Part shown: one piece after another, positions 6,865 through 62,190 of the stretch
Numbering within the stretch: position 1 is the stretch's first letter
Layout: the number at the start of each line of letters is the position of its first letter
Assembly: GCF_921293095.1 (NCBI RefSeq)
Contig: NC_060257.1
Span: forward strand, 53,170,968 to 53,234,967
Length of the DNA stretch: 64,000 bases
Reading direction: 5' to 3'
Source: Ischnura elegans
Lineage: Eukaryota > Arthropoda > Insecta > Odonata > Coenagrionidae
Position numbers and translations under genes: made by a program
Notes under the pieces: model-generated
Databases searched by the model: none
The model's input: only the letters and a program-made list of their open reading frames with translations
Told to the model about the DNA's origin: nothing

Positions 6865-7701
6865 TCATGTTCGCTTCACGTTAGACGCAAGCAATGTGGG
6901 GGGTACCCTAAGCTCGGGGCCTCCGGTGGTTGCCGACCTGGCCAGACTGCCCCTGATTTTAGTATTCCAGTGGTCATCATCATCTTTTGGGGGATTCTGC
7001 CCGTCGGCAGGTCCCCCACGCCAATGCTGTCTCCAATCCCTCCTGTCCTGGGCCATCTCCTTGAAATCTACATATCTTCCAATTTTTAAGTTGTCAATAA
7101 ACTTCAGCCTTCTCCTTCCCCTTCTTCTGATCCCTTCCACTGTTCCCTCCAAGGCTACATTCAAAATTCCATTCCCTCTCATCAAATGTCCCATCCAGTT
7201 ACCCTTCCTTGTATTTATTTTTTCCATGATCGTTCTTTTCTCTTCCTTCCTATTTAACACTTGCTCGTTGCTAACTTGATCCGTCCACTGTATTCCCTCC
7301 ATCTTCCTCCAAACCCACAGCTGAAACACCCCAATCCTGTCCCTGTCTCTCTTCCCCATCGTCCAAGTCTCAGATCCATATATAAACACACTCCACACAC
7401 AGCACTTCACCAATCTCTTCCTCAATTTTAATTCCAGTGCCTTGTTACACGAAGCTCTTTTCTTCTTCTTGAAAACTTCTTTTGCCATTCCTATCCTTCT
7501 TTTTATTTCTCCCATACTTTTCCAGTCTTCAGTTATCAAAGTTCCCAAGTAGCTGTAGGTTCTCACATTCTGTATTTCACCTTCTTTTGTCTTCACTCTC
7601 ATACCACCTACATTTCTAACTGTTATCACTTTAGTCTTTTTAATGTTTATTCTCATTCCATTAGTGTCCATTCCTTCCTCCAAACCTGTTACCAATATCA
7701 C
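6865..7701 (-). pseudogene. 5'-truncated non-LTR retrotransposon reverse transcriptase (C-terminal part)
   Basis: A 278-residue open frame shows the thumb and C-terminal signatures of LINE-type reverse transcriptases: TYSYLGTLITED, SVFIYGSETWTM, FQLWVWRKMEGIQWTDQVSN, GNWMGHLMRGNG and RRGRRRLKFIDNLK. The catalytic FADD region should lie upstream and is missing, so this is a typical 5'-truncated insertion. The reading frame is intact over its whole length, suggesting it is not very old. Related fragments lie at 60475-61090 and 61440-61495. The clade cannot be fixed from this piece; RTE/CR1/Jockey-type elements all carry similar C-termini. Confidence 0.85.
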
Positions 7702-7755
7702 TGCAATGACACTGGTAATACATATTGAATTTGCATCATTTGAGAACCACTAAGT

Positions 7756-8160
7756 CAAGGGTGTCAAACACGCGGCCCGCTCCCTTACAATCTGCGGCCC
7801 GCGGCACCATGACTTCTTCAATTGCAAACGGCACTTCCTTTGCTCCTTTAAGATTTACAGCTCTTGCAGTTGGAAGATCAAAACTTACTGGCACTTCATC
7901 CATATTACCCACATGCATTTCTTCATGCAATAGTACAGGAAAAGAGGTGTCAAGTATCTGGGAGTATTAGTACCAGGGATTAAAGTAAATACACTTTTTC
8001 TTCTCTTCCAGTTGCCTTTATAAATAGGCAATAATAATTATAATATAGTTGTGGTAGTATTTTATATAATTCTCCTGTTATTGGCCCTGAAATATGCGGC
8101 CCTCGAGCTGTATGAGTTGGCTAATGTGGCCCGCCAAGGTGAATGAGTTTGACACCCTTG
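7756..8160. mobile_element. 405 bp hAT-type MITE with 8 bp target duplication
   Basis: The ends CAAGGGTGTCAAACACGCGG and GAGTTTGACACCCTTG are inverted repeats of the well-known hAT type. The 8 bp CACTAAGT is present exactly on both sides (7748-7755 and 8161-8168), the duplication length expected for hAT transposases. Subterminal GCGGCCCG and CGGCCCTC motifs are inverted as well. There is no transposase, so mobility would depend on one elsewhere in the genome. Confidence 0.93.
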
Positions 8161-8490: not shown

Positions 8491-9005
8491 GGTGCCGACT
8501 TACAAAAAATATTGGGGGGGCCCAAACTGGGTATCTTGCCCCGTGAAATTTTATAAGTAGTGAGTTTTAAGTTTTTTAAGCATTTTAGAAGAGTTGTATG
8601 ATCAACATTAGAACCCTGATAACTCGAATCTCGATATCTGGACACTCAGGGGAAAATCGACAAGCTTGGCACATTTTTTCCTCACACCCATAACGAATTT
8701 TTGAGGGGGCTCAGGCCCCATGAAGTTGGCACTTGTACTTACATTCTTGCTTGTACGTTCCAATGACAACATTGTAAACAACTTTTTGCATGCCTCCCAC
8801 TCCTAAAGTCCTGGGCTAATGACATGATGAACCCTTTGGCCTCTCTCTCACCTGAACCCCCCCTCCACCTGCCATACCCTGCCTAAGGGAACCTTCTCCC
8901 TCTACGTTCTTTCCACCATATGACCAAGTTCCTTCCCCCCTCCCTCATATCTGTTGACCAATCCGTTCAACCTAGTTACCTTCCTCCCTCCCCCTCCAAG
9001 CCTGG
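8491..9005. other. Eroded repeat sequence, no gene
   Basis: It contains a MITE-like fragment (8500-8720, with GGGGGGCCCAAACTGG, TTTTGAGGGGGCTCAGGCCCC) and a pyrimidine-rich stretch (8820-9003). The last four bases, CTGG at 9002-9005, are the target duplication of the retrotransposon that follows. Confidence 0.5.
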
Positions 9006-9615
9006 TGTGGTAATCGGAAGATACTCTGCGTGGCGGGAAAGGAGGCGGGACGCTACTTTTCCCGCCCTAGGGTGCGTGGGTCCAAGTAGCATTTCTTAGA
9101 ATTCGGACCACGCCCGAGGGTACTCTACCCTTTCCCGCTGCGGCCCCTTTCCCTCCACCCGCACACCCAGAAAATAGCTATATAGGGCAGAAATTGTGGC
9201 CCGCGGTGGACAGTTTTTCGTGGCAGTACAGCAAGTGCGGAGTGCTTGGGCAGAGCGAGTTCGTCGTTCGGGGACTGCTGCGACTCTCCTCCGGGGACTC
9301 TTCGGGACCTAGACGCGGGAGCTGCGGTAGATCTCGAACGACGACTCGAGTGGGAATCGAGCCGGGTACAACAAGATCCACGTACATCGGCACCCCCTCT
9401 CCCTACTCGCCGCCACGTAAGTTCTCTGCCCAAGCATTCCACCTCCGTGCGCGCCAGCCTCAAATCCCCCCCGGTGCAAGTGCAAGAACTGAATAAGAAC
9501 GAACAATAAATACTGTGTTAATTACTCCCAAATGAGCATTTGATTCGCTCCCCCTTCGGGACCTTATCCAGACCGAAGACCTACCAGTAGGTAGCAGTGT
9601 CGTCCAGTCGCGACA
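9006..9615 (+). repeat. 5' LTR
   Basis: 610 bp, TG...CA ends. A TATATAG box lies at 9179-9185 and a polyadenylation signal AATAAA at 9505-9510, which gives a plausible U3-R-U5 layout. It matches the 3' LTR except for a 3 bp indel in the CGACGACTCGAG stretch near 9350 and one C/A change near 9415. Short open frames on both strands inside the LTR recur in both copies and are not genes. Confidence 0.96.
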
Positions 9616-9618
9616 TTT

Positions 9619-9631
9619 TGGTGTCAGGTGG
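9619..9631 (+). other. Primer-binding site, probably tRNA-Leu
   Basis: TGGTGTCAGGTGG starts three bases after the LTR. Its complement ends in CTGACACCA. Many eukaryotic tRNA-Leu species end in TGACACCA, so tRNA-Leu is the likely primer. The match beyond nine bases is not checked. Confidence 0.7.
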
Positions 9632-9758
9632 AAAATTAATTGTAATTTTCGGGAGCTAGTTTTACAGTGAATAATCTAAAGGACATTTATTCCGATTTTT
9701 TGTTATTTTCGTGCTTTATTTTATTTTTGTTTGTGTTGAATTTTGGTATTACTTCACT

Positions 9759-10610
9759 ATGGCCTGGCCGCAGGAAAATTTTATTTTCAAACAAAACACG
9801 AATCCATTATTTCGGCAGGAGCATAGCGCGGATTTAATTGATTTTCGTCCATCAGTTAATACTATAACCCCAAATCATTCTGAAAATTTACCTAATCCGC
9901 CATCCACGTCACCTAACTCCGCCATCCCTCACACTCTTGGGGGACAAGTATATTTTATTCCGCTATTCAGTGGGGATGATGACATATCGGTAGAAACTTT
10001 TTTCGAAAAATTAGATTTAATTCGCAATTTAAGTGCTTGGACCGAACATCAAACGTTATGTGTCGCGCGCTTACGCTTGGCAGGATCCGCTGCTGAATAT
10101 GTCTCTGCTAATCCACACGTAGGCAAAAGCTTCAGTGATTTTCTTAGATACTTAAAACAAAGATTTTCTGCCCGCATTTCACCTCTGTCTCTCGAGCGCT
10201 TATTTTCCTGCTGCACTCAGCAGCCTTTGGAAACAGTAGCAAACTACGCAACACGGCTTCGGAAAATTGCAAGGCAATTGCTTGAAACACTCGCGGATCC
10301 GTCCTCGGAAGTGGCCACGGCGATGATAGGAAACAGGCTTCTTTTGCAATTTTTGTCGGGATTACGAGAAGAAATAGGTCGCTTTGTGCAAGTCAGACAC
10401 CCAAAGAGTATGTTAGAGGCCGAAGAGTATGCTCTGCAGGAGGAAGCGACTGTGAAGAGTTACGCCGCCAAAAAAATAGACGCGCAGTATGTGCATATGT
10501 TGGATAGCTTTCCCTATGATAGCCTTCCACATCCCTTTACCCCAAGCCGGGAGAATACCCTCACTCTCCCTTTCTTCGTCCAGCTTTCCTCAAGTGAACC
10601 ACATCCCTGA
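9759..10610 (+). CDS. gag: gag, capsid part (frame ends early)
   Basis: The first Met followed by a typical capsid is at 9759 (MAWPQENF); an earlier Met at 9711 adds a hydrophobic stretch unlikely to be coding. The residues show a Ty3/gypsy capsid: the block FFEKLDLIRNLSAWTEHQ, then LRLAGSAAEYV, FSDFLRYLKQRF and LLQFLSGLREEIGRFV, ending in an acidic helix (AEEYALQEEA). This frame stops at 10610 before the zinc knuckles, which lie in the +1 frame. Since related gag proteins continue straight into the knuckles, I read this as a small indel between about 10560 and 10610. Translation of the rest of gag and pol from this copy would be lost unless ribosomes shift. Confidence 0.85.
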   Translation: MAWPQENFIFKQNTNPLFRQEHSADLIDFRPSVNTITPNHSENLPNPPSTSPNSAIPHTLGGQVYFIPLFSGDDDISVETFFEKLDLIRNLSAWTEHQTLCVARLRLAGSAAEYVSANPHVGKSFSDFLRYLKQRFSARISPLSLERLFSCCTQQPLETVANYATRLRKIARQLLETLADPSSEVATAMIGNRLLLQFLSGLREEIGRFVQVRHPKSMLEAEEYALQEEATVKSYAAKKIDAQYVHMLDSFPYDSLPHPFTPSRENTLTLPFFVQLSSSEPHP

Positions 10611-10926
10611 CAGACAAGGCCTTCGCCCACACCCTTCTCCTAGACCCTCTCCTGCCCATAAACCTGTCGTTCAAGATCGCCCAACAAATGCCAACCGAAG
10701 CTGCTATTCTTGCGGAAAGGCAGGTCATATTTCTAAGTACTGTCGCTCGCAAGCCCAACGCTGCTATAATTGTGGGGAAAATTCACACTTCTCCAAGGAA
10801 TGTCCACTTCAGTGTTGTGGAATTTGTAAAGAAATCGGCCATCGCCCGCTCCATTGCCCCATCAAGAAGACCTCCGAGAAACCGGGAAATGGGATAACCC
10901 CGACCGCGAGGTCGGGGATGAAGTAA
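10564..10926 (+). CDS. gag: gag, nucleocapsid part with three zinc knuckles (frame +1)
   Basis: The open frame runs from 10489, but the part resembling gag starts near 10564, after the capsid. It contains a proline/arginine-rich linker and three CCHC knuckles in a row: CYSCGKAGHISKYC, CYNCGENSHFSKEC and CGICKEIGHRPLHC, each C-x2-C-x4-H-x4-C. These bind RNA during packaging. The frame ends at 10926 and overlaps pol by 73 bp; the -1 frameshift signal lies inside that overlap. It is separated from the capsid frame by an apparent indel. Confidence 0.85.
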   Translation, partial: LSLSSSSFPQVNHIPDRQGLRPHPSPRPSPAHKPVVQDRPTNANRSCYSCGKAGHISKYCRSQAQRCYNCGENSHFSKECPLQCCGICKEIGHRPLHCPIKKTSEKPGNGITPTARSGMK

Positions 10927-13900
10927 TTTTGGCAGTATCACCAGCATCGGGTATGGCAGTAAGAGTTCAAATATTGGGAAAGCCTTACCGTTTTTTAGTG
11001 GACACCGGAGCCGCAGTTACCATTATAAATGAGAAAAAATTTCCATTTCATACTCTCCAGGTTTTGCCCTACAATCGACCAATTAAGAGCGCCTCGGGTC
11101 ATTGTTTAAAAACTTCTGGCCAAAGCTACCTTCCATGCTTAATAGGTGGAATACCATACCCCCATGATGCTCTTGACTTGGGAGAGACGGAGTATGATGG
11201 TATACTAGGATTAGATTTTATGACGCAGTATGGAAGTCAAATATGCCTCGCTAGCGGCACCTTCAAAATTACACCGGATCACACCGTGGAGTTGCTCTCG
11301 AGAGATGCCCCTTTGGAAGAGATAAAATTAATTTCTTTCGAAGAGACTAGTGGTAGCAAGGAAAATAAATCAAACTATATTCCAATTAACGATACGGATT
11401 TACTTTTCTTGATGGAAGAAGAAAAACATAAGGACTTACCGGAACCGATATTACCCCAACAGGCCTCCACCGCAGTAGGAAATTTGATCGACATTGACAC
11501 ATCCTGGTCGTTTGAAACAGAAACGCAAAATAGATTGAGTAATTTTCGGGAGACAAATGATATAATGCTTGAGGAATTTTCAGGACCTTTAAGGAGAATT
11601 AGTGAAAGTGGAGAGGAATACGAGAAAACGCCAGTGGACGAGTCTAATGGAGAGGATACATGTGAGGTTATCGAAATCATCCCGGCCGAAAGGCAAGAAC
11701 AGGATCATCTTGGAGAAATGGGAGAGATTGACGAGTATTATGGGCCGTCAGGGACTCTACCAGGGAAATTTTGGAGTACTGACGATGAAAGGGTATGTAC
11801 CGCAATCTCTTCCGCCGAGAGGCAATCGCGAGATGACCTTGTGACCAAGGGAGAGATATGCGATGGTTATGAGCAAAGCATCACTGATCCTCTAAAGAAT
11901 TATTTTGGGCCGTCAGGGACTCTACCAGGAAAATTTTGGAGTACTGACGATGAAATGGCGTGCACCGCAATCTTTCCCGCCGAGAGGCAATTACAAGATG
12001 ACCTTGTGACCAAGGGAGAGATATGCGACATGTATGATAAAAACGCTGATCTCCGACAAGAAAAGTTTCGAACGTATGCATATTTAAAAAAACGAGAAAA
12101 AATTCCCCCCTATTCTGCAGTATTAATCGCCGCCTGGAATGAAGAATTAGCTGGAAAAGTCGTGTCAGTGGAGGCAGCGGACAATGAGACACTTGTAATC
12201 CCCTCTGTCTCTAAAGTTTCCGACGATGGAGCCGTGAACGTTCTCCTCAGTAATCTTACTAGTTCCGAACAAGTCTTGAAAGCTGGAACAGGGATTTGTG
12301 TGGAAGAAGAAAATGAGGAAATTATGTTCTTATCCATTCAGGAGGGAAAGGAAGAACCACCAATTTGGCCAGAAGAGGCGAAAAATGGTGATTTGTTATC
12401 ACTATTTAACTTTGATAGCGTACCGGAAGGCGCGAGAGACTCCTTGAAAAATTTAATCAGTGAATATTCAGATATATTCACTCATGGATCCACTCCTCTA
12501 GGATGCACAAATCAAGTGAAGCACATTATTAATGTTGGTGATGCCCGACCGATTAAAAAACAACCTTATCGCGTCCCCCATGGCCTTCGACCTATTCTAG
12601 AGAAAGAAATTAATGAGATGCTCGCTCAAGGTGTCATATCACCTTCTACGAGTCCTTGGGCTGCGCCTCTCATTCTGGTGAAAAAGAAGTCATCATCAAA
12701 TAATGGTATCCCGCTGTACCGTCCTTGCGTAGACTACCGGGCGCTTAACAATGTCACCGTTAAGGAAGTTTTCCCTCTGCCAGATATCGAGGAGACGTTT
12801 GATCAATTAGGAGGGGCAAAATATTTTTCTACGATGGACCTCTGCAGTGGGTATTGGCAGGTGGAGATGGATGAAGCAAGTAAACAATACACGGCCTTCA
12901 GTACACCAGACGGGCATTACGAGTGCAACCGCATGAGCTTCGGACTCGCGAATGCACCCTCCACGTTCATGCGCTTAATGATGAAGGTACTTCGTGGGAT
13001 GATCAACCATGGCTGCGCCTGCTACCTGGACGACATCATGCGCTATGATTCTACCCCCGAAGACCACATCAATGGGCTCCGAGAAGTTTTTAGCCGATTA
13101 CGTAGTGCAAACCTACGACTTAAGCCGCAAAAATGTAACTTCTTCAAGGAGCGAGTAGGATTTTTGGGCCATGTGGTGTCGGTCGATGGAATACGGCCGG
13201 ACAAAGAGAAAGTTGAGGCCATAAAAAACTTCCCTATACCTAAGAATGTTCAGGCAATACAATCCTTCCTCGGTCTCGTCGGATATTATAGACGTTTTAT
13301 ACCGGATTTCGCGGACGTTTCTTGCCATCTCACACGGCTGATTAAAAAAGGCAACGAATTAGTTTGGGAAGAGGAACAGCAACAGGCGTTCGAGAAATTA
13401 AGATTGGCTCTCTGCACTCAACCCGTTCTAAAATTTCCTGATTTTTCGAAACCATTTCTTCTTTACACGGACGCCTCTACTCAAGCGTTGGGAGGAATAT
13501 TGGCGCAAAATTTTGAAGATGGTGAGCACCCTGTGGCCTGTGCCAGCCGGCAGTTGCGTAAGGCTGAGAAGTCGTATTCCGCAACAGAACTAGAGTGCTT
13601 AGCAGTGGTGGAAATGATTAAAAAATTTCGCGTATACTTGCTCGGACGAACCTTCACCCTCTATACAGATCATAAGCCGCTAAAATGGCTGCTAACGCAG
13701 AAAGAGCCGAAACCGCGATTGGCGCGCTGGATCATGGAGATCACTGAATTTACGTTCGACATCCAACACCGACCTGGCAAACAACTGCCCCACGTAGATG
13801 CGCTATCCAGAATAATTCCCGGGATTAACGCCCTCGAGGTGAAGATGGTCACTCACGAGCCAACGTGGGATAAGGAGAAAATACTGCATGAGCAACAAAA

Positions 13901-15281
13901 CTGTCCCCATTTAAAATCCCTCCATGATTTGGCCCGAATTCATGACCCATCCTTTTTCTACGATGAAGATGGACTCCTTTATAAAGTTATCCCCGGCACA
14001 CCCGATCCTAAATTTTCCCTATGTGCACCAAAAGCTATGCGTCGATATATCATGGACCGATGTCATGACAATCCATTAGCTGGACACTTAGGCGTGACCA
14101 AGACTTTGGAACTTGTTCGCAGGCACTTCTTTTGGGATGGATCCTCGGTCGATACGACTAACTATGTTAACGGCTGTCTCACGTGCAAGAAGAGAAAGGC
14201 AAGAACCCAATGGATACCAACTCAGCCCACAGAAGAAACCTCCTACCCCCTCGAAAAATTAGCATTGGATATCGTGGGGCCTCTTCCGAAATCTTCCCGC
14301 GGAAATCAGTACATCTTAACTTGCCAGGACCACTTCACCCGGTATCCCGAGGCCGTGGCCATTCCCAACCAATCCGCGGAAACAATCGCGCGAGCTTTTG
14401 TGGAAAATGTTATCTGTCGTCACGGAGTACCGAAATACCTTTTGACAGACCGTGGTGCGAATTTCACCTCCAACCTAATGAAAAATGTCTGTAAACTTTT
14501 GCAAATTAAGTCGATATTTACCTCCCCTTACAACCCCGCCGCCAACGGTCGCCTAGAACGAGCGCATCAATCGTTCGCGAATGTAATTTCCCACTATGTC
14601 TCGCAGGACCACACAGACTGGGATGACCATTTAAATTTTGCTCTTTTTGTATACCGGAATAGCAAAAATAGGATCACCGGGTATTCCCCTGCCTATTTAA
14701 TGTACGGAAGGGAACTTAAAATGCCGTGGGATGCCGTATTAGAACCCTCAAGCGTTTCTTACGCCGTGGAACACCCCTACGAATTGGTAATAAAAAGAAG
14801 GCTGCAAATGGCGCATTCGCAAGCCGCAGAATTCAGTAAAGAGAGCTTAGAGAGCGACAGGGAGAGGAATAATCAAGGGATATCCCTTCCCCCGCTGATG
14901 GTCGGACAAATGGTACTACTGAGAAATATGAAGCTTCCAGGTGGTGCGAGTAAAAAGCTCGCCTCTCGGTGGATTGGGCCATATGAAGTAATTAAGGTGA
15001 GAAGTCCAGTCACCTATGATATTCAAAGCACTCAGCACGGTAGAACCCTGATTGCCCACCGCCGTAACCTTTTACCCCTACCACCTGATCCTGTGCCAAC
15101 GCAACCCACCTTCCGTGCCGACTGCAGTGACCCCTCATCCCCCTGCCCCCCTTGTGAGCCTCGCCGGACGCCCTCTTCGAGACCTCTCGAAGAAGAAAGT
15201 GCGTCGCTGCCCACTCCCCCGACCCCCCGAAGTCATCCTTATAATCTTCGACCCTTACCAGGTCGTGGAATCCGCCCTTAG
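10854..15281 (+). CDS. pol: pol polyprotein: protease, reverse transcriptase, RNase H, integrase
   Basis: The open frame has 1,475 codons; by the frameshift model translation enters at 10884. Protease: LVDTGAAVTII at about 48-58 and DGILGLDF at about 115-122. A long acidic spacer (about 130-540) includes a 55-residue duplication. Reverse transcriptase: RPCVDYRALNNV near 622, MDLCSGYWQVEMD near 662, catalytic YLDD near 723. The strand after YLDD reads IMRYDS, where relatives usually have only hydrophobic residues. RNase H: LLYTDAS near 868 and TDHKPLKWL. Integrase: HHCC zinc domain at about 1067-1112, then the DDE residues in LALD, LTDRG and RLER (about 1138, 1198 and 1234, 35 residues between the last two), and a GPY-type C-terminus (WIGPYEVI). 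No chromodomain is seen. No stop interrupts it, so the enzyme set may be functional. Confidence 0.95.
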   Translation: MPHQEDLRETGKWDNPDREVGDEVILAVSPASGMAVRVQILGKPYRFLVDTGAAVTIINEKKFPFHTLQVLPYNRPIKSASGHCLKTSGQSYLPCLIGGIPYPHDALDLGETEYDGILGLDFMTQYGSQICLASGTFKITPDHTVELLSRDAPLEEIKLISFEETSGSKENKSNYIPINDTDLLFLMEEEKHKDLPEPILPQQASTAVGNLIDIDTSWSFETETQNRLSNFRETNDIMLEEFSGPLRRISESGEEYEKTPVDESNGEDTCEVIEIIPAERQEQDHLGEMGEIDEYYGPSGTLPGKFWSTDDERVCTAISSAERQSRDDLVTKGEICDGYEQSITDPLKNYFGPSGTLPGKFWSTDDEMACTAIFPAERQLQDDLVTKGEICDMYDKNADLRQEKFRTYAYLKKREKIPPYSAVLIAAWNEELAGKVVSVEAADNETLVIPSVSKVSDDGAVNVLLSNLTSSEQVLKAGTGICVEEENEEIMFLSIQEGKEEPPIWPEEAKNGDLLSLFNFDSVPEGARDSLKNLISEYSDIFTHGSTPLGCTNQVKHIINVGDARPIKKQPYRVPHGLRPILEKEINEMLAQGVISPSTSPWAAPLILVKKKSSSNNGIPLYRPCVDYRALNNVTVKEVFPLPDIEETFDQLGGAKYFSTMDLCSGYWQVEMDEASKQYTAFSTPDGHYECNRMSFGLANAPSTFMRLMMKVLRGMINHGCACYLDDIMRYDSTPEDHINGLREVFSRLRSANLRLKPQKCNFFKERVGFLGHVVSVDGIRPDKEKVEAIKNFPIPKNVQAIQSFLGLVGYYRRFIPDFADVSCHLTRLIKKGNELVWEEEQQQAFEKLRLALCTQPVLKFPDFSKPFLLYTDASTQALGGILAQNFEDGEHPVACASRQLRKAEKSYSATELECLAVVEMIKKFRVYLLGRTFTLYTDHKPLKWLLTQKEPKPRLARWIMEITEFTFDIQHRPGKQLPHVDALSRIIPGINALEVKMVTHEPTWDKEKILHEQQNCPHLKSLHDLARIHDPSFFYDEDGLLYKVIPGTPDPKFSLCAPKAMRRYIMDRCHDNPLAGHLGVTKTLELVRRHFFWDGSSVDTTNYVNGCLTCKKRKARTQWIPTQPTEETSYPLEKLALDIVGPLPKSSRGNQYILTCQDHFTRYPEAVAIPNQSAETIARAFVENVICRHGVPKYLLTDRGANFTSNLMKNVCKLLQIKSIFTSPYNPAANGRLERAHQSFANVISHYVSQDHTDWDDHLNFALFVYRNSKNRITGYSPAYLMYGRELKMPWDAVLEPSSVSYAVEHPYELVIKRRLQMAHSQAAEFSKESLESDRERNNQGISLPPLMVGQMVLLRNMKLPGGASKKLASRWIGPYEVIKVRSPVTYDIQSTQHGRTLIAHRRNLLPLPPDPVPTQPTFRADCSDPSSPCPPCEPRRTPSSRPLEEESASLPTPPTPRSHPYNLRPLPGRGIRP
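10884..10917 (+). promoter_or_regulatory. -1 programmed ribosomal frameshift signal (gag to pol)
   Basis: The slippery heptamer G-GGA-AAT is at 10884-10890, with GGA and AAT as the zero-frame gag codons; slipping back one base gives GGG-AAA in the pol frame. After a 7-base spacer (10891-10897), 10898-10905 CCCCGACC pairs perfectly with 10910-10917 GGTCGGGG around the GNRA tetraloop GCGA. Frame, spacing and stem are all as in established -1 frameshift sites. It would set the gag:pol ratio. Confidence 0.82.
11742..12029 (+). repeat. 165 bp in-frame tandem duplication inside pol
   Basis: 11742-11864 and 11907-12029 are copies with a period of exactly 165 bp (55 codons), including GPSGTLPGKFWSTDDE, AERQ, and DLVTKGEICD in each. 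A more diverged third piece lies just upstream (about 11680-11740, PAERQEQDHLGEMGEID). The module lies between protease and reverse transcriptase. Confidence 0.93.
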
Positions 15282-16036
15282 AAGTCACTCCCTTCACCAT
15301 GCCGCACCCTCGGAAACGCCCTGCACTCCGACTCACCACCCGTTGGTGGAAACGTTCGGTGGTACGAGTTGGAGGAGAAGGATCCACCGATTCGACACGT
15401 CGGACGCCCGAGGACACCAGGACATTCCCCCCCCCAGTGCTCCGAGCCGTTAATTTTTTTCGTGTGTGAAAGGACAGAAGACTCGGTTTTATGCTCTATA
15501 TGTTATGCTTATTTGTTTTTCCCTCAGTGCGACTTTGGACACATAAGTGTTATTTTTTTGTGCAGTGATTTTAGAGATTCTTTTTATTAAATGCAGTGCA
15601 GTGTTTTCTTTAAAAATTTTATTCTAGGAGTTTATAGTGACGATGGACACAGTTATTCTTTTGTAGCGTAAGTTGTAGAGCTATTTATATTTTATTTTAG
15701 GACTAAACAGTTACGTTGGACATATTAAGTGCAACATTCAGTGATTTTAAAAAATGTTCATGTTTTTTCAAGGTATTTTTTGTTTAAGTGTTTATTCTTG
15801 ATATTTGCATTGTAAATTGATTTTCCTCCCTCGTTGAAAATTTGGTGATTTTTTTTCATTTGGTTTCTTTCAATGTTTTTTTTGTATGTTGTAATTGTCT
15901 ATTTTTGTCAATTGTTTGCGAATTGTTTTTTTTTTCGTATGAGTTCTTATTTGAAATATTTATGTTGACTTCAGGCTGGAGCGCAATGAAACCTACCCCT
16001 CTCCTTTTCAAATCCCCCCCCGTAGATTTATTTGCC
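15282..16036 (+). other. Retrotransposon 3' untranslated region, no envelope gene
   Basis: About 750 bp, strongly T-rich from 15540 onward. No open frame has a signal peptide, furin site or transmembrane segment of an envelope gene. The element is therefore a gag-pol type, without the third frame of errantiviruses. Confidence 0.8.
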
Positions 16037-16046
16037 AAGGGGGTGA
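16037..16046 (+). other. Polypurine tract
   Basis: AAGGGGGTGA lies directly before the 3' LTR, the expected position of the plus-strand primer. A single T interrupts the purine run. Confidence 0.75.
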
Positions 16047-16653
16047 TGTGGTAATCGGAAGATACTCTGCGTGGCGGGAAAGGAGGCGGGACGCTACTTT
16101 TCCCGCCCTAGGGTGCGTGGGTCCAAGTAGCATTTCTTAGAATTCGGACCACGCCCGAGGGTACTCTACCCTTTCCCGCTGCGGCCCCTTTCCCTCCACC
16201 CGCACACCCAGAAAATAGCTATATAGGGCAGAAATTGTGGCCCGCGGTGGACAGTTTTTCGTGGCAGTACAGCAAGTGCGGAGTGCTTGGGCAGAGCGAG
16301 TTCGTCGTTCGGGGACTGCTGCGACTCTCCTCCGGGGACTCTTCGGGACCTAGACGCGGGAGCTGCGGTAGATCTCGAACGACTCGAGTGGGAATCGAGC
16401 CGGGTACAACAAGATCCACGTACATCGGCACCCCCTCTCCCTACTCGCCGCAACGTAAGTTCTCTGCCCAAGCATTCCACCTCCGTGCGCGCCAGCCTCA
16501 AATCCCCCCCGGTGCAAGTGCAAGAACTGAATAAGAACGAACAATAAATACTGTGTTAATTACTCCCAAATGAGCATTTGATTCGCTCCCCCTTCGGGAC
16601 CTTATCCAGACCGAAGACCTACCAGTAGGTAGCAGTGTCGTCCAGTCGCGACA
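16047..16653 (+). repeat. 3' LTR
   Basis: 607 bp, same ends as the 5' LTR, followed by the CTGG target duplication (16654-16657). The TATA box and AATAAA recur at matching positions. Confidence 0.96.
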
Positions 16654-20812: not shown

Positions 20813-23800
20813 TCAAGTTGTTTCATTAAGCTTTCTTTGTAGCATCTCACGAACTGTATTGTTACCAACTTTTGCATCATCAACCTTGCCAAGATTGTTT
20901 TCTCCAATGACAAACATAGCTACTTCATAACACTTGTAATAGGCATTTAGATCATCTTTGCGTAATACATAATGGAAAATATTGCCCCAAATTCTTTGGC
21001 TGTAAAGGAGAATGGCACTCACTTGTTCCTCTGATAGATATTCTAACATCATGGCTACAAAACATGAAATGAATAAACTTTTAGTCTTTTCACTTCTACC
21101 ATCATATAACAATGGAAATTGATCATATATCCAGATAAACTCTTCACTAAGGCGAGTAATTAGCTGCTCTTTGCCCAGTATACAGGATTCAAGTCTCAAT
21201 TGACGCCGGAGGAGAACAAGAAATAATTTTAAGTGGATGCCTTCAATCTTCCTCTGATATTCATCCAAGATACCAATGAGATATCCATCTTCATCTGATC
21301 TAATGTGATCAGCAAATGGGAAAGACTCAATAATAGGCAGTATAAGTTCAAATTCCTGTTCAACTTCTGAAATAAATCCCTCCTCCTTATTGTACTGGTC
21401 CAGATGTTCAAAACAAGAGGGGGCCAACCAAAGGTAATAATTTTCCATGTTTTTAAGAATTTCTTGAGAATCCAAGCCTGCAGAAGTCAGGAATTCTTGC
21501 ACTTTAAACAAGTACCTCGGGGAGAAAGTGGTGTAAACTGATATCAAATAATGCCAATCATTCTCATCAACCATGTTTAGCAAACGGACAGCATCACTTC
21601 GGTCAAGAGATCCATTTGCGACAGCATCACTCACACAATCCAGCAAACGGTCTGCTTTCAACATAACTGAGTCCATTGTTCTGCTGAAACTCTCAAACAG
21701 ATATACCCTGAATTCCTCTCGAGTCATTTCCTCTTGGCATATAATCCAGACGAAAGGTAGAACTTCTCTGTTCTCCCAATTGGCACATGCAGAGTATATA
21801 GCATTCTTTCCTCTACCATCTACAGCTTTCAGAACTCTTATCCTATCTTCCTTTGTCTCCAGCTTACTCTTCAGATAATTCCACATCTTTCGCACATCCT
21901 CAACTCCACAATTTTGAAACACGTGACACCAACCTTTTAGCACATTATTCTCACTTGCAATGAGCTTAACTAAAGCCGGTAGCTCAAATATCGACTCCAA
22001 AAACTGGACCAACATCTCAAAAAGAAAAACAGCTCCATTTTGAAAAAATCCATCAGAACGATCCTCAAATATTTTTGATTTTAAGGCATGCGAAAGATGT
22101 TTTTTATTTCTTTCAAGAAAATTAAAGAGGAAACTGAAATACCCTCTACCTTTTTCACAACTCCATAGAGAGAACTCATTGAACCCCATCCATGACACAC
22201 CCTTCTGAGAAATAACCGCTGATAGATTAAGAGTCAAGTTACGTTTTTCAATTAACTGCAACAATTCAGTGAGATATTTGAGATAGTCTAGCTCAGAATG
22301 TCCACCTGATTTGTATTCTGAAGTATTCCCAACATTGCTGGGATGATGTGACATCTCAGAATATGTCATCCCCACTTTACCTCTAATACATCTTCCGCAA
22401 AACGTAAAAGCATTCCAATGACCATTCTCATGAATCACGGGGAACTCCAACATCTTGATATCCCAATCAGCTTTACAGAACATGATATCAATTAAGAGAT
22501 CATTAAAGCTTTCGGACAAAAACTCTGTCACACCAATATGGCACTCAAGTATAGACATGTAAATACATTTCTGAATGGATTCCACAAATTGTTTCTCCAT
22601 ACTTTGCTCATCAAATTTCATCCTTTTTAATAGAGGAGTTTTTTTCCCAACAGATTGCTTAGCCTTAGCTTCTGATCTTGGTCCACACTTTAATACCAAC
22701 ATACTGTTGATGAACTGCCGAACTTTATGGAATTGCTTTTCCAACAACACCTTGTTCAACCAAACTTTTGTAACTTTCTTTTTTTCACACTTTTCAAAAA
22801 GCCAAAGTGATAAGATGTATTCACCTAATGTCCTATGAACAAAAACAATTGAATTTCTTATCCTTTCAACCAATCCTACTAGAAGCATGTCTTGCACCTT
22901 ATCCTCATCCAATTCGAATTCTTCATCATCTAGGAAATAATACGCAGAGAACTTCTTCAACAATTCATACATATTGTCCTCGAATCCTCTATCCCTAGCA
23001 TCTCCAAGAACACTTGCCTTGCTCCTAAGCTTCTCTCTGCTGTACATTTTAACCTTGATATTCACAAACTTATCATACAGCTGAGGTGGATTTAGAGATT
23101 TTTCTATTTCAAAGTTCTCCTCAAAAACTACGTAAGCCAACATCCACGCATGAAGTGGATTTTCAGAAAAATTGACTTCATCTTCAACAGCTGACTCCCC
23201 CATCTTTATCAATTGATCAGCAACTTCATTAAATTCAATTATGCAATTTTTCCCCCCTTTGGACGAACATGTAAGATCTTCAAGAAGTTTAGAAAATGAT
23301 TGCCCTTTTCTTAAACTGTCAGAGGTCTGCAGAGCTGCAACAATATTACTAACTTTTTCCTTCCTTTCATCGAGGGACAAGCTACGAAGATAGGCATTCC
23401 ATTCTAAGTTTAGGAGTTGAATTTGATCCCCATGGTTGAAGGGCATAAATTTATATGCAAGGGTTGAGAATTTATCCTCCATTTCTCCAGCTTCATGCAC
23501 ACGGGTTGTAAGACACATTTTGGCATTGGAAAAGTTCGAGAGAATCCCTACAAATTCCCCAACAATATCCCTGTAAGTCGGACAAATTTCATCAAAGCCA
23601 TCAAAGAAAATGAAAAACTTGTTTCCATTGCGGAAGAAAAGTCGAAAGAATTTTTCCTCAATCTGATTTTGTGAACCAGTTTTCAGCAGCTCATAAAGTA
23701 AATCTTCCACAGAATCCTGAGATAAATATTTCTTATTCTCCCACACCTTGAAGCTGTCTTCGAAGAGTGAGAGCTCTATCACATCAATCCAACACTTTTT

Positions 23801-25601
23801 ATATTTTTTCTTCATTTCTAGTGCCATCTTATTGACAAATACTGACTTCCCACTTCCCAGTGCATCTGCTACCAAAAGAACTTCATTTGGTGTAGTGTCA
23901 CTTTCTAACAGACTCACTCCTGAACACTCAAATGCAAATTGTTCATCTTTTAATAAATGCCTACAGTTTATAGAACCTATGAGGCTATAATCTCCATGTA
24001 TTAATTCAAAGAAATGGACAAAATGCAACTTCCCACCCCTCTTACTGTTCCAGTCAATGATCTCCGATATCTCCCTGAATAAGTTCACACTGTGGGCAAA
24101 ATTATGTTCTCCAGTTAAAATAAAGCAACGGGCATCCACTGGATTTTCCTCACCTTTCCACAAGTAAACTGGTCCCACACCTACATCTTCTAAATCTTTT
24201 CTCCTAGCTTTGGAGATGAAGAATGCATCATCGGCTCTCTTTTCGAAGGTATGTCTGTTGAACTCAATTTTACTTAGTACTAAGTTGCGTTGTATAAAAC
24301 AATTGTGCTTATGGAGAAGTTCCTTCACTCTTTTCCCCAGAATGGTTTTCAATCGCCTCCCAATTTCAATGGTTCCTTCATCTATCAACTTTGACAGAAA
24401 TTTTGCATCATCCTTGAGTTCTGCATCTTTCTCTGATAAAGTTTCTAGAAGATCCCTTAATTTCAACACATTCCCACCAAAATATAATTCTTTTTCCAAT
24501 AAAAATCTTTTTGAGCCCTCAGACAAGTCGTTCCAAGTGTAATTTATACAAGATATACTTTTTGGAACAGGAACCTCTGTAGGCAGAATCAAAATCAAAC
24601 TTCGCCGAACTTCTTCATCAAAAGGTTTACCAATACATTTTGCAGAGGAACATTTACTTGATCCACAAAACCCGGGTTTTTCCTTCTTATCCCAAACAAC
24701 GGCCAGGTTTTTAATATCATTCTTTCGCACGCCTATTTTCAATATGCTGGTATCTTTTAAATACCTGGTCCAGTCAACAAACATCACATCTTTCAATGAC
24801 TGCCGCAAGTGGCTGACTCCCAGCTTCAGATTTGATACATGAAAAACTTGCAGGAGATTATGATGGGAAATCTCATGGGTAGAGAAGGATGAATTCACTT
24901 GAATATCATTGTCACAGTATTCTGACAGCATTGCAGTATTCAGCCAGTCATGATATTTACGTTTCCCAGCCACAATGTTCCGTTTTACGTAGTCCTCCAA
25001 TTCTCCCTGAACCCTCTCATCATAGAAACGCAGTAGCTCAGGGGCCTGTTTTACCAAGTGGTCCATCCCAATGCCTATTGTGCTATCTTCATTACTTTGT
25101 GTATGATATTTGGACATCATTTCTGGCACCCTTACTATCAACTCATGTTCCTTATTATAGCCAGCAGCCCTCTGAATGATTGGATCACAATCACACAATC
25201 TCTCATCTGATAAAACTGTTTCAACGACATATTCGTACTCCTTCTTAGCCTCACCATCATCTCGTCTGTATGGAAGACCACCATTTTCGAATACAAGGGC
25301 GTATGCCTTGTGCGCACACTCATGGGCCAGATTGCTAATTATGTCCCGGTGCTTAAATTCCTCTGTTTCCTTTGCAGCCACATATATTCTGTTCACCTTA
25401 AAGTTTGTCAATCCCCAATTTTGGCCATGTTGAAAAGGATGTATACCATGGATATTGGAAGATGAGAAGTCGAAAATTATTTTCAGTGAAGGATCATCTT
25501 GAAGGCACTGTAGAGTGGTTGAGCAGTACTCCTCTTCATCTATTTCTGTGAAGTATTCCATCACTTTCTTTGAGCATGCCTTGATATCCACTCCTTTGTA
25601 T
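20813..25601 (-). CDS. ANK-HExxH-NACHT protein, main exon
   Basis: The coding exon starts after the acceptor TTTTTCTATCCCAATAG at 25602 and runs 1,595 codons to a stop at 20813. With the upstream exon the protein has 1,820 residues (full-length numbering used here). HECAH at 318-322 gives the HExxH zinc-ligand motif within ISNLAHECAHKAYALVFENG; a later Glu-rich helix (YEYVVETV) could supply the third ligand. The NTPase core follows: Walker A ADALGSGKS at 803-811 (the first Gly of GxxxxGKS is Asp), Walker B FIFFDGFDE at about 888-896, a sensor CLTTR at 921-925, NPLHAWMLA near 1039, and FVHRTLGEY at 1145-1153, the conserved winged-helix signature of NACHT proteins. The final 670 residues are helical and leucine-rich with no clear leucine-rich repeats. 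STAND NTPases of this kind usually act as ligand-gated scaffolds in immunity or cell death. The enzymatic role of the HExxH segment is inferred. No stop or frameshift is seen. Confidence 0.88.
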
Positions 25602-27405
25602 CTATTGGGATAGAAAAACACCACAATAATTACTTTAGAAGATAAAAACGTTTTTCTAACATTAACAACAAGAGAGCTGGTGGTTTCTGGTGATACTTAG
25701 AAGAATTTGATGAAAATTTTGAATGATTTTTTGTCATTAATCCACGTAAATGGTTTTAACGGTTAATGTAATCCATTAAAAATATGGCATTAGGCATCAA
25801 AACCATGGTTGCGATTTAAATAAAACATACAAAACAGTTAATGAAATTAAAGAAAGTCTTCCGAGTTAAAAAATTACAACCAAATAATGTTGATTCATAT
25901 GGATGAGGCTTTATATAACCCTGAACTTAGCCACGGGTATGTAAATTTTCACACAGTCATGGTAGGGAAGCCGGCTCCCTAACTCAAGTTGCCCCAAGAG
26001 GATTTCTTGGGGACATCAAAAGATTTCATACAGGAGCCTTCAGTTAGAAATCTAGTACATACTAGCAACGGTGCTACCACTCTCTCGTAAACTAATTTTG
26101 AAAATTTATCAATGCAATAAGAAACCATAGATATACTGACAAGTGTGAGATATTGCACACCCTTTACTATGTCCGAATATATTCACAAATTATTAATTTA
26201 TTACATTATTAATTAAAATTTATTAATGATTTAATTACCCTTATTTTCTAATGTTTTCTGACCTTTTTTTCAAGCCTTTTCAATATATTCCAATTAAATT
26301 TAGACATTGGTGTATCCAAAATGACTGGCCGCTTTCCCACAGTACTCTTACCCTTGGACCTTGCCAACCAACCTCTCCATAGACCCAATAAATGACCCTT
26401 TTCCCACAACTGTCTATATTTCTACCCTCCGATGTCCAACCCCCACTCTTTCCTTCATCCCCTCTCAGACTATGCCCCGAAGACCTTGATTAAAGGACGA
26501 ACTTGATAATATAGCATGATGCAATTGAGAATACTGTAGTGAAAACGTAACACTTTGTGTGGAAATAAAATTTAAGGAAACATTGCACAATATATGATTT
26601 AATCCGTAATTTTAGAATGGTTGGAGATCCAACACCTCTTTCATAGAAAAAAATTTGAGGGTTACTCTTTTATCAAGGTCCAATTGGTCACGGAATATAA
26701 ACCATGGTGACAATCAAATTATGCTAATAGCAGATATTTTGTGCTGGTGTGTGCATTGACCATATCACGTAGCAAGAGTTAGATCTGAGTGTGCTATGAG
26801 CACTTATACTTGCCTACAACAACAGTGTCTCCCCCCACATGAGAATGTGCTGTATTTCTTCATGATGAGGAGTGAAATTCTACCGAAAAGCATCAAAGAA
26901 TGAGTTATGTGTATGGTGACACTTTCATGAGAGACAGTGAAGTGAAGCAATGGTTCCGGAACTTTAAAATAGGACTTCCATGATGCATACCTTCATGAAG
27001 AACTTGAGTGTCAACTGATTTCTTGTCCAGCAAGTGGATCAGGTGATTCAAGAAGATAGTTGGTCCAATATTGAGGGCTAGGCTCCCTCAGATTTTCATC
27101 TTCTTGCTAAAAGAAATCCTACCTAAAAGGGTAGTGTTATGGCACAGACAACAGCAGACTGAAGACCAGTACAGAGAGGGGATTCTACAATGGGGGTTTT
27201 GGAAAATTATTACCATGGTGAAAAAGATGGCTATGTTGGAATGGCGAATATATAGAAAAGTAGCTGAACAGTGAAGCTGAATGTTACAATAAATCATTTT
27301 TAATTTTTTCTTTGGTTTTGGGTTCATGACTGATCAGATCTTAAAGAAAGAATAGCCCCTAGAATCCTAACTATTGTATTACCAAACACTCATTTAAGAA
27401 CTTAC
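25602..27405 (-). other. Intron of the ANK-NACHT gene
   Basis: On the minus strand the donor is TATGG/GTAAGT at 27406/27405 and the acceptor is CCCAATAG/ATACAAAG at 25602/25601. The split codon GG/A gives Gly, and the frame continues on both sides without a stop. The 1,804 bp intron holds a mariner relic in the opposite orientation. Confidence 0.88.
26840..27340 (+). pseudogene. Mariner-like transposase relic
   Basis: Frame-shifting translation gives YGDTFMRDSEVKQWFRNFK, the N-terminal helix-turn-helix signature of mariner transposases, then near the end YREGIL and AMLEWRIYRK in alternating frames, which correspond to the C-terminal LVxRWxKCI and YVEK blocks. The catalytic middle is missing and several stops are present. 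It is an internally deleted, inactive copy lying in the intron of the NACHT gene. Confidence 0.6.
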
Positions 27406-28079
27406 CCATAAACCTGAGACATGACAAACAGTTTTTGTACATGACACCCTTGAATATCCACAAAATGATTTCCAATGGCATCAACAAAAGGTTTTTCAGG
27501 TTCTATGTCTCTCGCTTTGGTTCTCTCTCCTTCTGAAACATACTCGAATCCCGCAGCCCTCAGCATCGCCCAGGTGTTGTACTTTTGGTTTTCCAGAGCT
27601 GCATAAAGGGCCGACACGCCATTCGAATTGATGAAATACCTGGGAGGATCACATTCATCTTGAAACGTCTTCAACATCTCCTCCACATACTTTGTATCTT
27701 GTTCAACAATAGTCTTATGGAAGCTGTCCCTCAGGTTGAAGAAATTACTCAGACCTTCATGTTGTAGAACCACTGACTTGAACTGATTCACCAGATTCTC
27801 ATCAGCCAATAGACTCGGCAGTAAGGATGTGTGGTTTAGAAGTATGTGCATTACCTCTGGATGGTTCCCCGCAAAAGCATAGTCAATGGACAATCTTCTT
27901 CCATTGTCAAGAGAATTGACCTCAGCACCACAATAAAGGAGGAGTTCTACAGATCTACAGTCACCAATCTTAGCAGCATTCATCAATCTAGTAGTCCCAG
28001 AAGAATCTATTCTGCCATTGGCAAGAAGATAGGTTTCTTGAGGGACAGTCAAGACTTTTCTGCCCTCGAGCCACATCAT
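27406..28079 (-). CDS. ANK-HExxH-NACHT protein, first coding exon (ankyrin repeats)
   Basis: It encodes the first 224 residues plus two bases of a split Gly codon. The Met at 28079 (MMWLEG) is chosen because a TGA lies in frame two codons upstream. Ankyrin repeats: about 29-61 (GTTRLMNAAKIGDCRSVELL, then LYCGAEVN), 62-92 (YAFAGNHPEVMHILLNH) and a weaker one at 153-181 (GVSALYAALENQ, MLRAAGFEY). Ankyrin repeats bind protein partners, so this end may sense or recruit. A 3' splice site (TTTATATGCAG) lies 28 bases upstream of the Met, at 28108, so a non-coding 5' exon is likely further upstream in 28.1-30 kb. The exon ends with GTAAGT and joins the large exon in frame. Confidence 0.85.
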
Positions 28080-42500: not shown

Positions 42501-45500
42501 AGGTGTGCGTACCTAGTAGAATTTCCAACCACAACCAAGAAGTTGTATGACGTGACATAATAAATGTAATGAGAAAACTTGTGCTACCGAAAGTAGCACT
42601 ATGGGTTTTGGGAGCATGAGATGCTCATATGTACTAACTTTGATCGCAATCCGTGCTGCCATATGAACCACCCCAGTTTATGGTATTTACCCTTTCCGTA
42701 GGACCAATTGTCAAGTGAATTGGCTTAATCTCAGGTGAGGAATTGGTTTAAATGAGGCCAGTGAATTCAGAATGTGTGACTGAGTTCACATTTGAAACAC
42801 TGGAGTATATGTTTTTCAAAATGTTATTTAACCAATCCTTAAAATTTGTCATCATATTATGTATTTCATTTGAATAGCTTATTTGGTTGAAAAGTTATTT
42901 AGTTTCTGTAAGGAAAGCATTATCTTTACTCATGTTGAGAGAGGAAATATTTGGTATGGGTAATTATTAATGAAAACTATATTCTTCTTTTCATCAAGTT
43001 TGTCACTGGCTACATAATAAATGAAATGTTGTTTAGCTTGAGATGATTCGTGTTATCTCAAGGCAATATTTATTCCAGTCTCACCAAAGGCTCCTAATTA
43101 CTGTTATAATAGAATATTTAAGTCTTGATTAAAAATGTGGTTTGATGTTGAAAGAAGTGAAGTGTCTTTAGTGAATGGCAAATTGTGCAAAAACAAACGA
43201 AATTGGTGAGATTTGAAATTTTAGAAGGTACACAGAGTAAGGGCAGATTATGAAGTGAACCTATAGCAAAGTGAGGGTCTACAGTATTGGCGATGCAAAG
43301 ATTCTCCCCAGCGCCCCTGGCGGCCGCGCCTGGAAGCACTCTAACTCAGACACATTCTTTGCTCGTAGCTTTGTTTACGTTGCGGAAATCATGGACCGCG
43401 ATTATTTGTCGGTGCCGCACTCCCAGAAAAACTATAGAAACACCACATACTGCAGCGTTCCACAGTGCTCAAGTTGTAATGCACCTGAAGTAAGCTTCCA
43501 TTATTTTCCGAAGGAAGAAAGTTTACGGCAAAAGTGGGTTATAGTACTGAAGATGGGAAAACGAGTGTCCAAACACAAATTATTTTAAGCACACATGTCG
43601 TTTAATAGCACGAGTGTTGAAGTTAGTGATACCCTGGCCTGATCAAGCTACGATCCGAGCCAACCTACCATCATCATTTTCAAAATACAAGTTCATCAGG
43701 ATTGTACTGGATTGCATGGAAATTCCCATAGAAAAATGCAAGTGTCTCAAATGTAGAATTTAAACGTATTCCCAGTACAAGAGGGGTCACACTGCGAAGG
43801 TCAATCTTGGCATTGCCCCATCTGGACTAATAACTGAGATAAGTTCTTTGTATGGTGGAGGAGCCTCGGACAAGTTTATTGTCACTGATAGCTGCGTGTT
43901 GGACAGATTAGACTACCAAGATGGAGTGATGTTGGATAAAGGATACATAATTGAAAATGAGTATCGTCTGGTAAGATATTTTTGCATTTATTTTCTTGAA
44001 GTAATGTAATTTTGCAGGTGTGTAGGTAAGATTGTCCTATCTTGCAGAGAAATTTAAGACTCATCCGCCCTTCATTTCTTCAGAAAAAATATCAGTTATC
44101 TAAGGATGATGCTCTTGAAACAGCTGACATTGCTAAAGTTCATGTTGAGTGAGCGATTCAACGCCTGCGGGCATATGAAATGATAGTGCGTCCAATATCA
44201 TGGACGCTACGCCCATATGCTGATGAAATTCCTCTTATTGTGTCGACTATTTAATTTTGGACCTCCAATCATGAATATTGACAAGTTCATGTAATGCTAT
44301 TACACATAAGTACTGTGTTTGTGACTAGAGAGATTGATCTGTGAATAAGAACTGAGAACTTTTTATCTGAGAACTGTTCATCAAGATTTGTCTTTTCTCC
44401 TTCTTTTGTGTTATATCAACTTACATGTGGAGTTGTCAACCACGTACTTCACCACAGACACGGCTTTTGAGAGAGAAAAACATAAATGAAGTAGTTACAA
44501 AAGAAGTCCTGGTTTATTTTCTGATCAGGTACATAAAATAAAGTTACTTTGGCATTACGGATTCAAAAACATTGGTAAAATGCAAAACATTGAAAATAAA
44601 AATTCACAATGGTAACTTAATACTGGTGCATCAAAATACATAAACTATAACATCACAACTGAGCAAGAGAAAAAAAACTAGGTGAAGACAATATTTCTGG
44701 ACAAATCAAATAGTTCAAGAAAACAAAAGAACACAATGACAAACACTAGAACTGAAAAACAAACCTGTAAACATAAGTTGCGTCAGTTTACATTTAAAAA
44801 ATCAGCTCTGTGAGAAATCTCAGGAGAAAAAAAAAGTGAAGGAAAAAGCACCTCAAGAGAGGCTTAAGAGTTAGCATAATGATCCTCCATTATTAGAGGA
44901 AGAAAATGATCAAAATAAATATCATATAATCTACTTAAAAGATTGAACACATAATCTGAATGAAAAGGAACACGTACTTTAAGATAATCATTACCAGCCT
45001 GAGAATACACAATGCAATCACTTTCTGGATGCCACTCAAAGCCATATCTATTTCAACTTGGGCAAAATGGTTAGTATTCTTCTTCATATTAACATTGTTG
45101 TCCAAGGTCTTCACTACTCTTTGATCCAAAAACTCAGCTGCCGTCAAAGTCTCACCATCCTTAATTGTCTTAATTTCAACATTTATTACTACCCTGCCAT
45201 CAACCAAAGTTGTTCCATCCAAACTTGCCCTCACCCAAGGAATTTTTGGACGGACTACAAGTCCTGACTCCACCACCTGACAACCCTCAAACACCTCATG
45301 CCTCTTTCTCGCTACAGTTTCAATTTTGTTGCCTCTGTCTGTGTACTTGTTACCAGTAAACTTGCTGTAGTACAAATTTGCATAACGTTTTTTCTAGTTA
45401 GCTTTAGGATTTACCGCATAAGTGAACTGGCTGTATGCCTTAGATTCTGGGGTAGACATATTTCTACCTTTGAACCAAGCATCAGTCCTCTGCGGGGTTA

Positions 45501-61549: not shown

Positions 61550-61830
61550 TTACCTTCAAATAAATTGGTGGAATAAATATAAGTTTTTTTTTCATTTCAT
61601 GACATTTAAGTTTTTCCAATAGCTGAGAATTAGCTACAAATTACCAGCATTGGCAACCCGCATGCCTCGGAAGCTCTCCTCTGAGTTTATTTCTGGCTAC
61701 GTGCCTGACGAGGATGCTCGGGTCACCCGAATATATTTCCATATCAAACGGTATAGATAAGAAGGACAAGGTGGCGGAGATTTAATCAAGCTCCGGCCAA
61801 GGAGTGGACTGTTTCACTGATTTTTCTTTT

Positions 61831-62190
61831 GTTTCATGTTTTCATGATTCATGTTTGCATGTTTTCATGTTTCCATGTTTCATGTTTTCATGTTTCATGT
61901 TTTCATGTTTCATGTTTTCATGTTTCATGTTTTCATGTTTCATGTTTCATTTTATCATGTTTCATGTTTTCATGTTTCATGTTTTCATGTTTCATGTTTT
62001 CATGTTTCATGTTTTCATGTTTCATGTTTTTATTTCATCTTTCATGTTTTCATGTTTCATGTTTTCATGAATCATGTGTGCATTTTTCATGCTTCCATGT
62101 TTCATGTTTTCATGTTTTCATGTTTCATGTTTTCATGTTTCATGTTTCATGTTTCATGTTTTATGTTTTCATTTTTCATGTTTTTCGTCG
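61831..62190. repeat. CATG-rich minisatellite
   Basis: About 24 degenerate copies of a 15 bp unit ATGTTTTCATGTTTC. Because 15 is divisible by 3, all three forward frames are open and give repetitive peptides, none of which is a plausible gene. Confidence 0.92.

Follow-up and report, generated by a model that had tools for sequence, protein, structure and literature searches.

Can an insect genome encode an NLR-like receptor that carries its own protease? The question is raised by a two-exon gene on the minus strand of a 64,000-nucleotide stretch of the damselfly Ischnura elegans (RefSeq assembly GCF_921293095.1, contig NC_060257.1, positions 53,170,968 to 53,234,967; hereafter the window), which encodes ankyrin repeats, an HExxH module and a NACHT core within a single protein. 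Drosophila is reported to lack NLRs, and arthropod NLRs are described as having no effector domain in a survey of 2024 (PMC11508797). The window gene is probably an arthropod STAND (NACHT) switch with an N-terminal zinc metallopeptidase of the gluzincin type as its effector, that is, a sensor-gated protease.

The two exons, 28079/28076..27406 and 25601..20813, had been proposed in the initial annotation to join exactly in phase, and direct reading of the splice sites bears this out. The donor is a GT at 27405 (GTAAG after 27406), the acceptor an AG at 25602 (AATAG before 25601), and the joined frame runs for 1,819 residues from the ATG at 28076, from which residues are numbered here, or 1,820 residues from the ATG at 28079, with no internal stop. 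At the stop density of the window, the probability that a stretch as long as exon 2 stays open by chance is about 8e-39. The ankyrins, HECAH, the Walker A and B motifs with DGFDE, NPLHAWMLA and FVHRTLGEY, all previously placed in one frame, were each located in the joined protein. The features are listed below, A3 being an alignment of 22 rows through the NACHT region and the tandem copy a second copy of the gene described thereafter.

27406..28079, minus strand: exon 1, N-terminal ankyrin-repeat region, residues 1-223 and two bases of codon 224 (Pfam Ank_2, E 4.1e-8)
25602..27405, minus strand: intron of 1,804 bp, GT..AG, read directly, both sites kept in the tandem copy
20813..25601, minus strand: exon 2, an open reading frame (ORF) with the HExxH module, linker, NACHT, helical and winged-helix part, C-terminal region and stop
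25013..25555, minus strand: gluzincin-like module, residues 240-420 (module hidden Markov model (HMM), E 6.8e-45; AlphaFold2 (AF2) model with a predicted local distance difference test score (pLDDT) of 81.7, about 97 at the motif; fold matches)
25310..25324, minus strand: HECAH, residues 317-321, two candidate zinc-binding His and the predicted catalytic Glu (HExxH conservation)
25130..25144, minus strand: ELIVR, residues 377-381, its Glu a candidate third zinc ligand (Glu conservation)
23933..25012, minus strand: linker, residues 421-780, common to arthropod-type NACHT proteins without the module (sequences and alignment)
23843..23866, minus strand: Walker A, DALGSGKS, residues 803-810 (G-x-GK invariant in A3)
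23588..23611, minus strand: Walker B, IFFDGFDE, residues 888-895 (terminal D and E invariant in A3)
23153..23161, minus strand: NPL motif after the NTPase, residues 1038-1040, in NPLHAWMLA (P invariant and L nearly so in A3)
22829..22843, minus strand: FVHRT winged-helix signature, residues 1144-1148, in FVHRTLGEY (F, H and the following E nearly invariant in A3)
20816..22732, minus strand: C-terminal region, residues 1181-1819, presumed sensor (raised nonsynonymous divergence (dN) relative to the module; no Pfam match at E<=10)

Comparison with related sequences supports one gene, made of both exons, for an ankyrin-HExxH-NACHT protein. Exon 1 aligns end to end with a second I. elegans protein (P0002, present in this genome at 100%; 42% identity over 223 residues, E 2.9e-47) and at 30-33% identity with P0003-P0005, and the homologs P0001-P0005 cover 96-100% of residues 220-1180, the region used as query. 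In P0002-P0005 the ankyrins, HExxH and NACHT all lie within one protein; the P0002 alignment passes the exon junction with zero gap, and several ankyrin-HExxH paralogs are single uninterrupted ORFs across it. That the exons belong together is supported on two counts: exon 1 aligns with such paralogs, and donor and acceptor alike are preserved in the tandem copy, whose intron is longer. Two separate genes were rejected on account of the junction-crossing ORFs and the retention of both splice sites.

The tandem copy, about 32 kb away, is the closest copy of the window gene. Its locus (L005) holds isoform X2 of LOC124169783 (P0001) without difference over 1583/1583 residues, and its identity to the window gene across exon 2 is 94.5%; its exon 1, in L035, is 95% identical over 220 residues and has an identical donor. 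A frameshift near the 5' end of that exon may be the reason that the database model of the copy starts inside exon 2. Followed upstream from exon 2, the homology between the copies ends at window position 26082, within the intron, and resumes at exon 1; the intron of the tandem copy is about 5.7 kb long.

The module appears to be of the gluzincin type, with an HExxH motif and a distal Glu that would serve as a zinc ligand. HECAH and ELIVR are spaced by 60 residues in the window protein. A first pass with the module HMM picked up 82 of 103 proteins; a second, run on 168 sequences made up of 165 database proteins, two bacterial ORFs and the window protein, matched 145. The full HExxH is present in 141 of these 145 (altered in P0163, P0134, P0011 from a beetle and P0138), the ELIVR Glu in 144 (the exception, L002, is unaligned there) and a Pro downstream of the motif in all 145, where only the first row with a letter was counted for the two-module proteins P0154, P0155, P0085 and P0163. 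A motif search of the damselfly loci with the module gave HExxH in 25/25 and ELIVR or EVIVR in 24/25. Chance occurrence of HExxH is ruled out by its retention across the module sequences. The window protein contains two more HExxH strings, HEISH at 466 and HENGH at 1281, the former common only to it and P0001 in the alignment.

No Pfam family was found that describes the module, and the weak matches point toward metallopeptidases. Exon 2 matches SprT-like at E 0.1 (12.9 bits against a cutoff of 25.6); among nine module rows searched at E<=10, SprT-like matches seven (best 5.2e-5), M48 two (2.2e-4) and IrrE-type M78 three (0.038), and P0155 bears a precomputed SprT-like label. Structure models were built from two alignments (A2 and A3) of 22 rows each, one row being the window fragment, and families missing from the structure-comparison lists were not counted as evidence. 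By such comparison the predicted module has a gluzincin-like fold, in agreement with the catalytic-domain fold of peptidase family M34, to which the lethal factor/PPEP-type gluzincins belong. In M34 a Tyr stands seven residues before the Glu; counted by sequence offset in 140 module rows, Tyr is found at -7 in 3, at -8 in 73 and at any of -5 to -10 in 82, and the M34 profile is absent among the 12 Pfam families listed for nine module sequences at E<=10. The first His and the Glu are 49 residues apart in lethal factor and 43 in PPEP-1, whereas the distance is 57-64 residues in 130 of the 140 module rows. The conserved HExxH and distal Glu, together with the gluzincin-like fold, support the earlier suggestion of a metallopeptidase-like domain fused to a NACHT switch.

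STAND NTPases are marked by a Walker B with an acidic DGxDE end, a downstream Arg, a Pro motif and a winged-helix His, and the window protein has all of these along with a P-loop. At A3 positions D670, E671, R700 and P815 the residues are invariant, and at D667 and H922 nearly so. The NACHT core named in the initial annotation is upheld by the profile check, in which NACHT matches 21 of the 22 aligned members at E<=0.01 (NPHP3_N matches 11/22), though the window protein alone falls below the curated Pfam cutoff (E 0.0015, 18.9 bits against 26.7); its relatives P0006, P0008 and P0015 exceed it. The predicted model likewise has a NACHT fold, matching NOD2 and NLRP3. Beyond the below-cutoff NACHT and the weak SprT-like match, Pfam gave nothing for exon 2 at E<=10, and NCBIfam and PADLOC gave weak matches only, PADLOC none at E<=1; a PDB search with the A3 profile was dominated by ankyrins. 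The Asp in Walker A, earlier taken to suggest unusual ATP handling, lends no support to that idea: it is present in all 20 damselfly loci with a listed Walker A and is therefore a family trait.

Proteins with the module were found in I. elegans, in Chironomus and Polypedilum midges, in the millipede Chamberlinius, in the soft tick Ornithodoros turicata and in the beetle Trypoxylus; as far as these proteins show, the distribution over arthropods is patchy. In the three protein searches scores were computed for just the 7,985-7,993 candidates sharing most words; among the matches listed, 60 of 66 rows in one search were from soft tick, and those of another were largely from midges or of unstated source. 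A strict Walker A and B pair is present in 108 of 142 database proteins with the module, and in all 108 the module is N-terminal. The other 34 comprise short models, proteins with motifs outside the strict pattern (P0104, with a precomputed NACHT label) and P0085-P0087. A hydrophobic stretch lies between module and NACHT in 34 of the 108 (e.g. P0012 and P0014, with midge proteins among those looked at) and, to judge by its composition, could be a membrane anchor. Two O. turicata proteins, P0154 and P0155, have two HExxH modules each, near residues 150-330 and 1350-1650.

Related proteins that lack the module keep the linker and NACHT and differ in their N-termini. In P0008, which also has ankyrins, a lipase-like domain (GHSLGG; Lipase_3, E 3.2e-4, 21.0 bits against 22) is in the module's place. 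The module is read as a domain in effector position because such relatives carry other N-termini on the same linker and NACHT. P0009 is also a related NACHT protein without the module (it and P0008 are either unlabelled or labelled "ankyrin repeat protein"), and P0015 has an N-terminal motif that looks nuclease-like by eye and has no Pfam match there. An HMM of the tandem repeats of P0008-P0011 fails to recognise the C-terminus of the window protein (E 0.28).

The family is large and evolves unevenly. At least 25 damselfly loci carry the module among those cut out, a lower bound since the search of the 1.72 Gb genome scores the best candidates only and some further loci were left uncut. They are divergent, five with stops in the matched stretch, and many are single uninterrupted ORFs spread over several chromosomes. 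Between the tandem copies the ratio of nonsynonymous to synonymous divergence (dN/dS) is 0.36 over 1,627 codons, 32 of them intronic. By domain, in eight non-independent pairs drawn from 14 open-ORF paralogs, C-terminal dN exceeds module dN in 8/8 and reaches 0.56. Six of the pairs were bootstrapped: in L014/L015 the C-terminus has a dN of 0.132 and a dS of 0.074, with a 95% interval for dN minus dS that runs from 0.030 to 0.088, and in the other five dN>dS at the C-terminus is not significant. Module dS is below C-terminal dS in six of the eight pairs, for which gene conversion could be the source. The C-terminus is conserved in the window pair (omega 0.24), and its faster change elsewhere is taken as receptor-like evolution at the level of the family, not as proof for the window gene.

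The module is also found in bacteria. A proteobacterial metagenome-assembled genome encodes, on a 449 kb contig (L001:2080-6855), a 1,591-residue ankyrin protein with the module in its C-terminal part (E 8e-38). Two database proteins of unstated source and of ankyrin or Sel1 type, P0086 and P0087, contain it as well. The L001 gene adjoins one for what is by eye a Sel1-type repeat protein. In a midpoint-rooted tree of 39 rows hand-chosen from 149 module rows, the odonate, tick and chironomid rows form one group each, with one change apiece (the chironomid group weakly, 76/48), L001, P0086 and P0087 are grouped (100/98), and P0085 falls with millipede and beetle rows; the tree does not tell whether the module passed from bacteria to arthropods or the reverse. 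A module common to a bacterial ankyrin protein and to arthropods raises the issue of which side acquired it from the other. Zero relatives were found in viral contigs, and searches of phages and plasmids were unproductive. A further candidate, L003, was judged a chance match; its ORF looks like a BlaR-type membrane protein.

As a sensor-gated protease, the window protein would be kept closed at rest by the NACHT together with the winged helix and the C-terminal region. A ligand encountered by this last region, which changes fast, and perhaps also by the ankyrins at the N-terminus, would set off nucleotide exchange or hydrolysis in the NACHT core, and with it oligomerisation. The HExxH..E modules, gathered or exposed in the oligomer, could with zinc bound cut a protein of the host or of the invader, which would trigger defence or cell death. 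Of the effector-sensor design put forward in the initial annotation, the fusion, the NACHT fold and the gluzincin-like fold stand, and catalysis and an immune role are what we infer.

A conserved enzyme-like module might instead be bait, a protease-like decoy that invaders or symbionts touch and that thereby triggers the NACHT switch, much as integrated decoys occur in plant NLRs. Hosts and microbes do share the module, since L001, P0086 and P0087 carry it; P0011, P0134, P0138 and P0163 have changed HExxH residues, and the STAND-zincin fusion described from bacteria is given as inactive (PMC8195603). A decoy could drop its catalytic residues, yet HExxH is retained in 141/145 sequences across insects, millipede and tick, and it is the C-terminus that evolves faster than the module, so that a bait seems unlikely. 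Much the same low standing is given to a non-immune role, in which a housekeeping or regulatory NACHT-ankyrin scaffold, comparable to the TANC and nephrocystin-3 proteins, would use a SprT-like protease in proteostasis or DNA repair. The SprT-like matches (below cutoff in the window protein, in 7/9 module rows) and NPHP3_N in 11/22 members fit such a scaffold, but at least 25 divergent loci, five with stops, and a C-terminal dN of up to 0.56 would be unexpected of it; the listed matches, concentrated in soft tick in one search and in midge or rows of unstated source in another, also count against it.

Least probable, and by some distance, is a gene family of selfish or symbiont origin that transposed or moved horizontally, with NACHT and module serving the element rather than the host. 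Many single-ORF paralogs across several chromosomes, a bacterial relative of the module and the patchy distribution would suit this origin; the module tree follows host lineage (odonate, tick and, with weak support, chironomid), the closest copy of the window gene sits in tandem, and the gene has an intron, all of which argue against it. The preferred reading remains a protease gated by a STAND switch.

The window has other features besides this gene. A Ty3/gypsy long terminal repeat (LTR) retrotransposon occupies 9003-16653. It contains a long pol ORF and one that is gag-like, and its direct repeats lie at 9003-9615 and 16044-16653; its insertion was probably recent, because the repeats share blocks of 300 and 275 nt at 100% identity. 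On the minus strand, an ORF at 44935-45393 has a YqaJ-like recombinase domain (E 7.9e-6), a nuclease of phage or transposon type, and a 294-residue ORF at 6865-7749 looks by eye like the end of a non-LTR retrotransposon, without a Pfam match at E<=0.001. At 61830-62184, an array in which a unit of 7 or 15 nt (TGTTTCA...) is repeated 24-48 times lies within a 177-residue ORF of Cys-Phe-His-Met repeats.

Among known systems, the closest in host and core are the NACHT homologues found throughout arthropods, of which a phage WO homologue has ankyrins (PMC5062602); the arthropod NACHT-ankyrin proteins resemble the window gene in NACHT core and host, and in ankyrins for the phage WO homologue (PMC5062602; PMC11508797). 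A shrimp NLR has leucine-rich repeats (LRRs; PMC12370184). The LRR is the mark of classical animal NLRs, and a Pfam search of the exon 2 protein at E<=10 listed none, nor was CARD or pyrin matched in either exon at the same threshold. By predicted fold the window protein is like NOD2, NLRP3 and NLRC4 in its NACHT, helical and winged-helix architecture, and it differs from animal NLRs in having an enzyme-like module N-terminally. Lethal factor and PPEP are secreted enzymes, whereas the module stands in an intracellular receptor context. The bacterial STAND-zincin fusion likewise joins STAND and zincin in one protein, but it is called inactive, is bacterial and is part of other conflict systems (PMC8195603). 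Metallopeptidase effectors are described as rare in bacterial systems (PMC7159879), and for ctenophore NACHT genes a metallopeptidase is named in a figure legend only, and not visibly in connection with NACHT (PMC11797021). Among the literature matches listed, no description of a NACHT switch fused to such a metallopeptidase-like module in arthropods was found.

More tentatively, the window gene may represent an ancient and extensive class of arthropod NLR-like receptors that has for the most part escaped recognition, acting as sensor-gated proteases with a metallopeptidase of lethal-factor fold, the same module being present in bacterial ankyrin proteins; we hold this as a serious possibility, just short of an even chance. 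If the module is active as a protease, the class would be an overlooked part of arthropod intracellular immunity, with direct proteolysis as its output in place of adaptor recruitment, and the prediction is easily testable, since it comes down to a single conserved Glu, a single P-loop and a module with defined limits, in a family rich in natural paralogs. Bacterial Avs-type and fungal NLR-like proteins use a STAND chassis with exchangeable N-terminal enzymes, an arrangement comparable to that of the window protein, and none known to us carries this module. The class would then be the arthropod counterpart of the enzyme-tipped Avs proteins of bacteria and NLRs of fungi.

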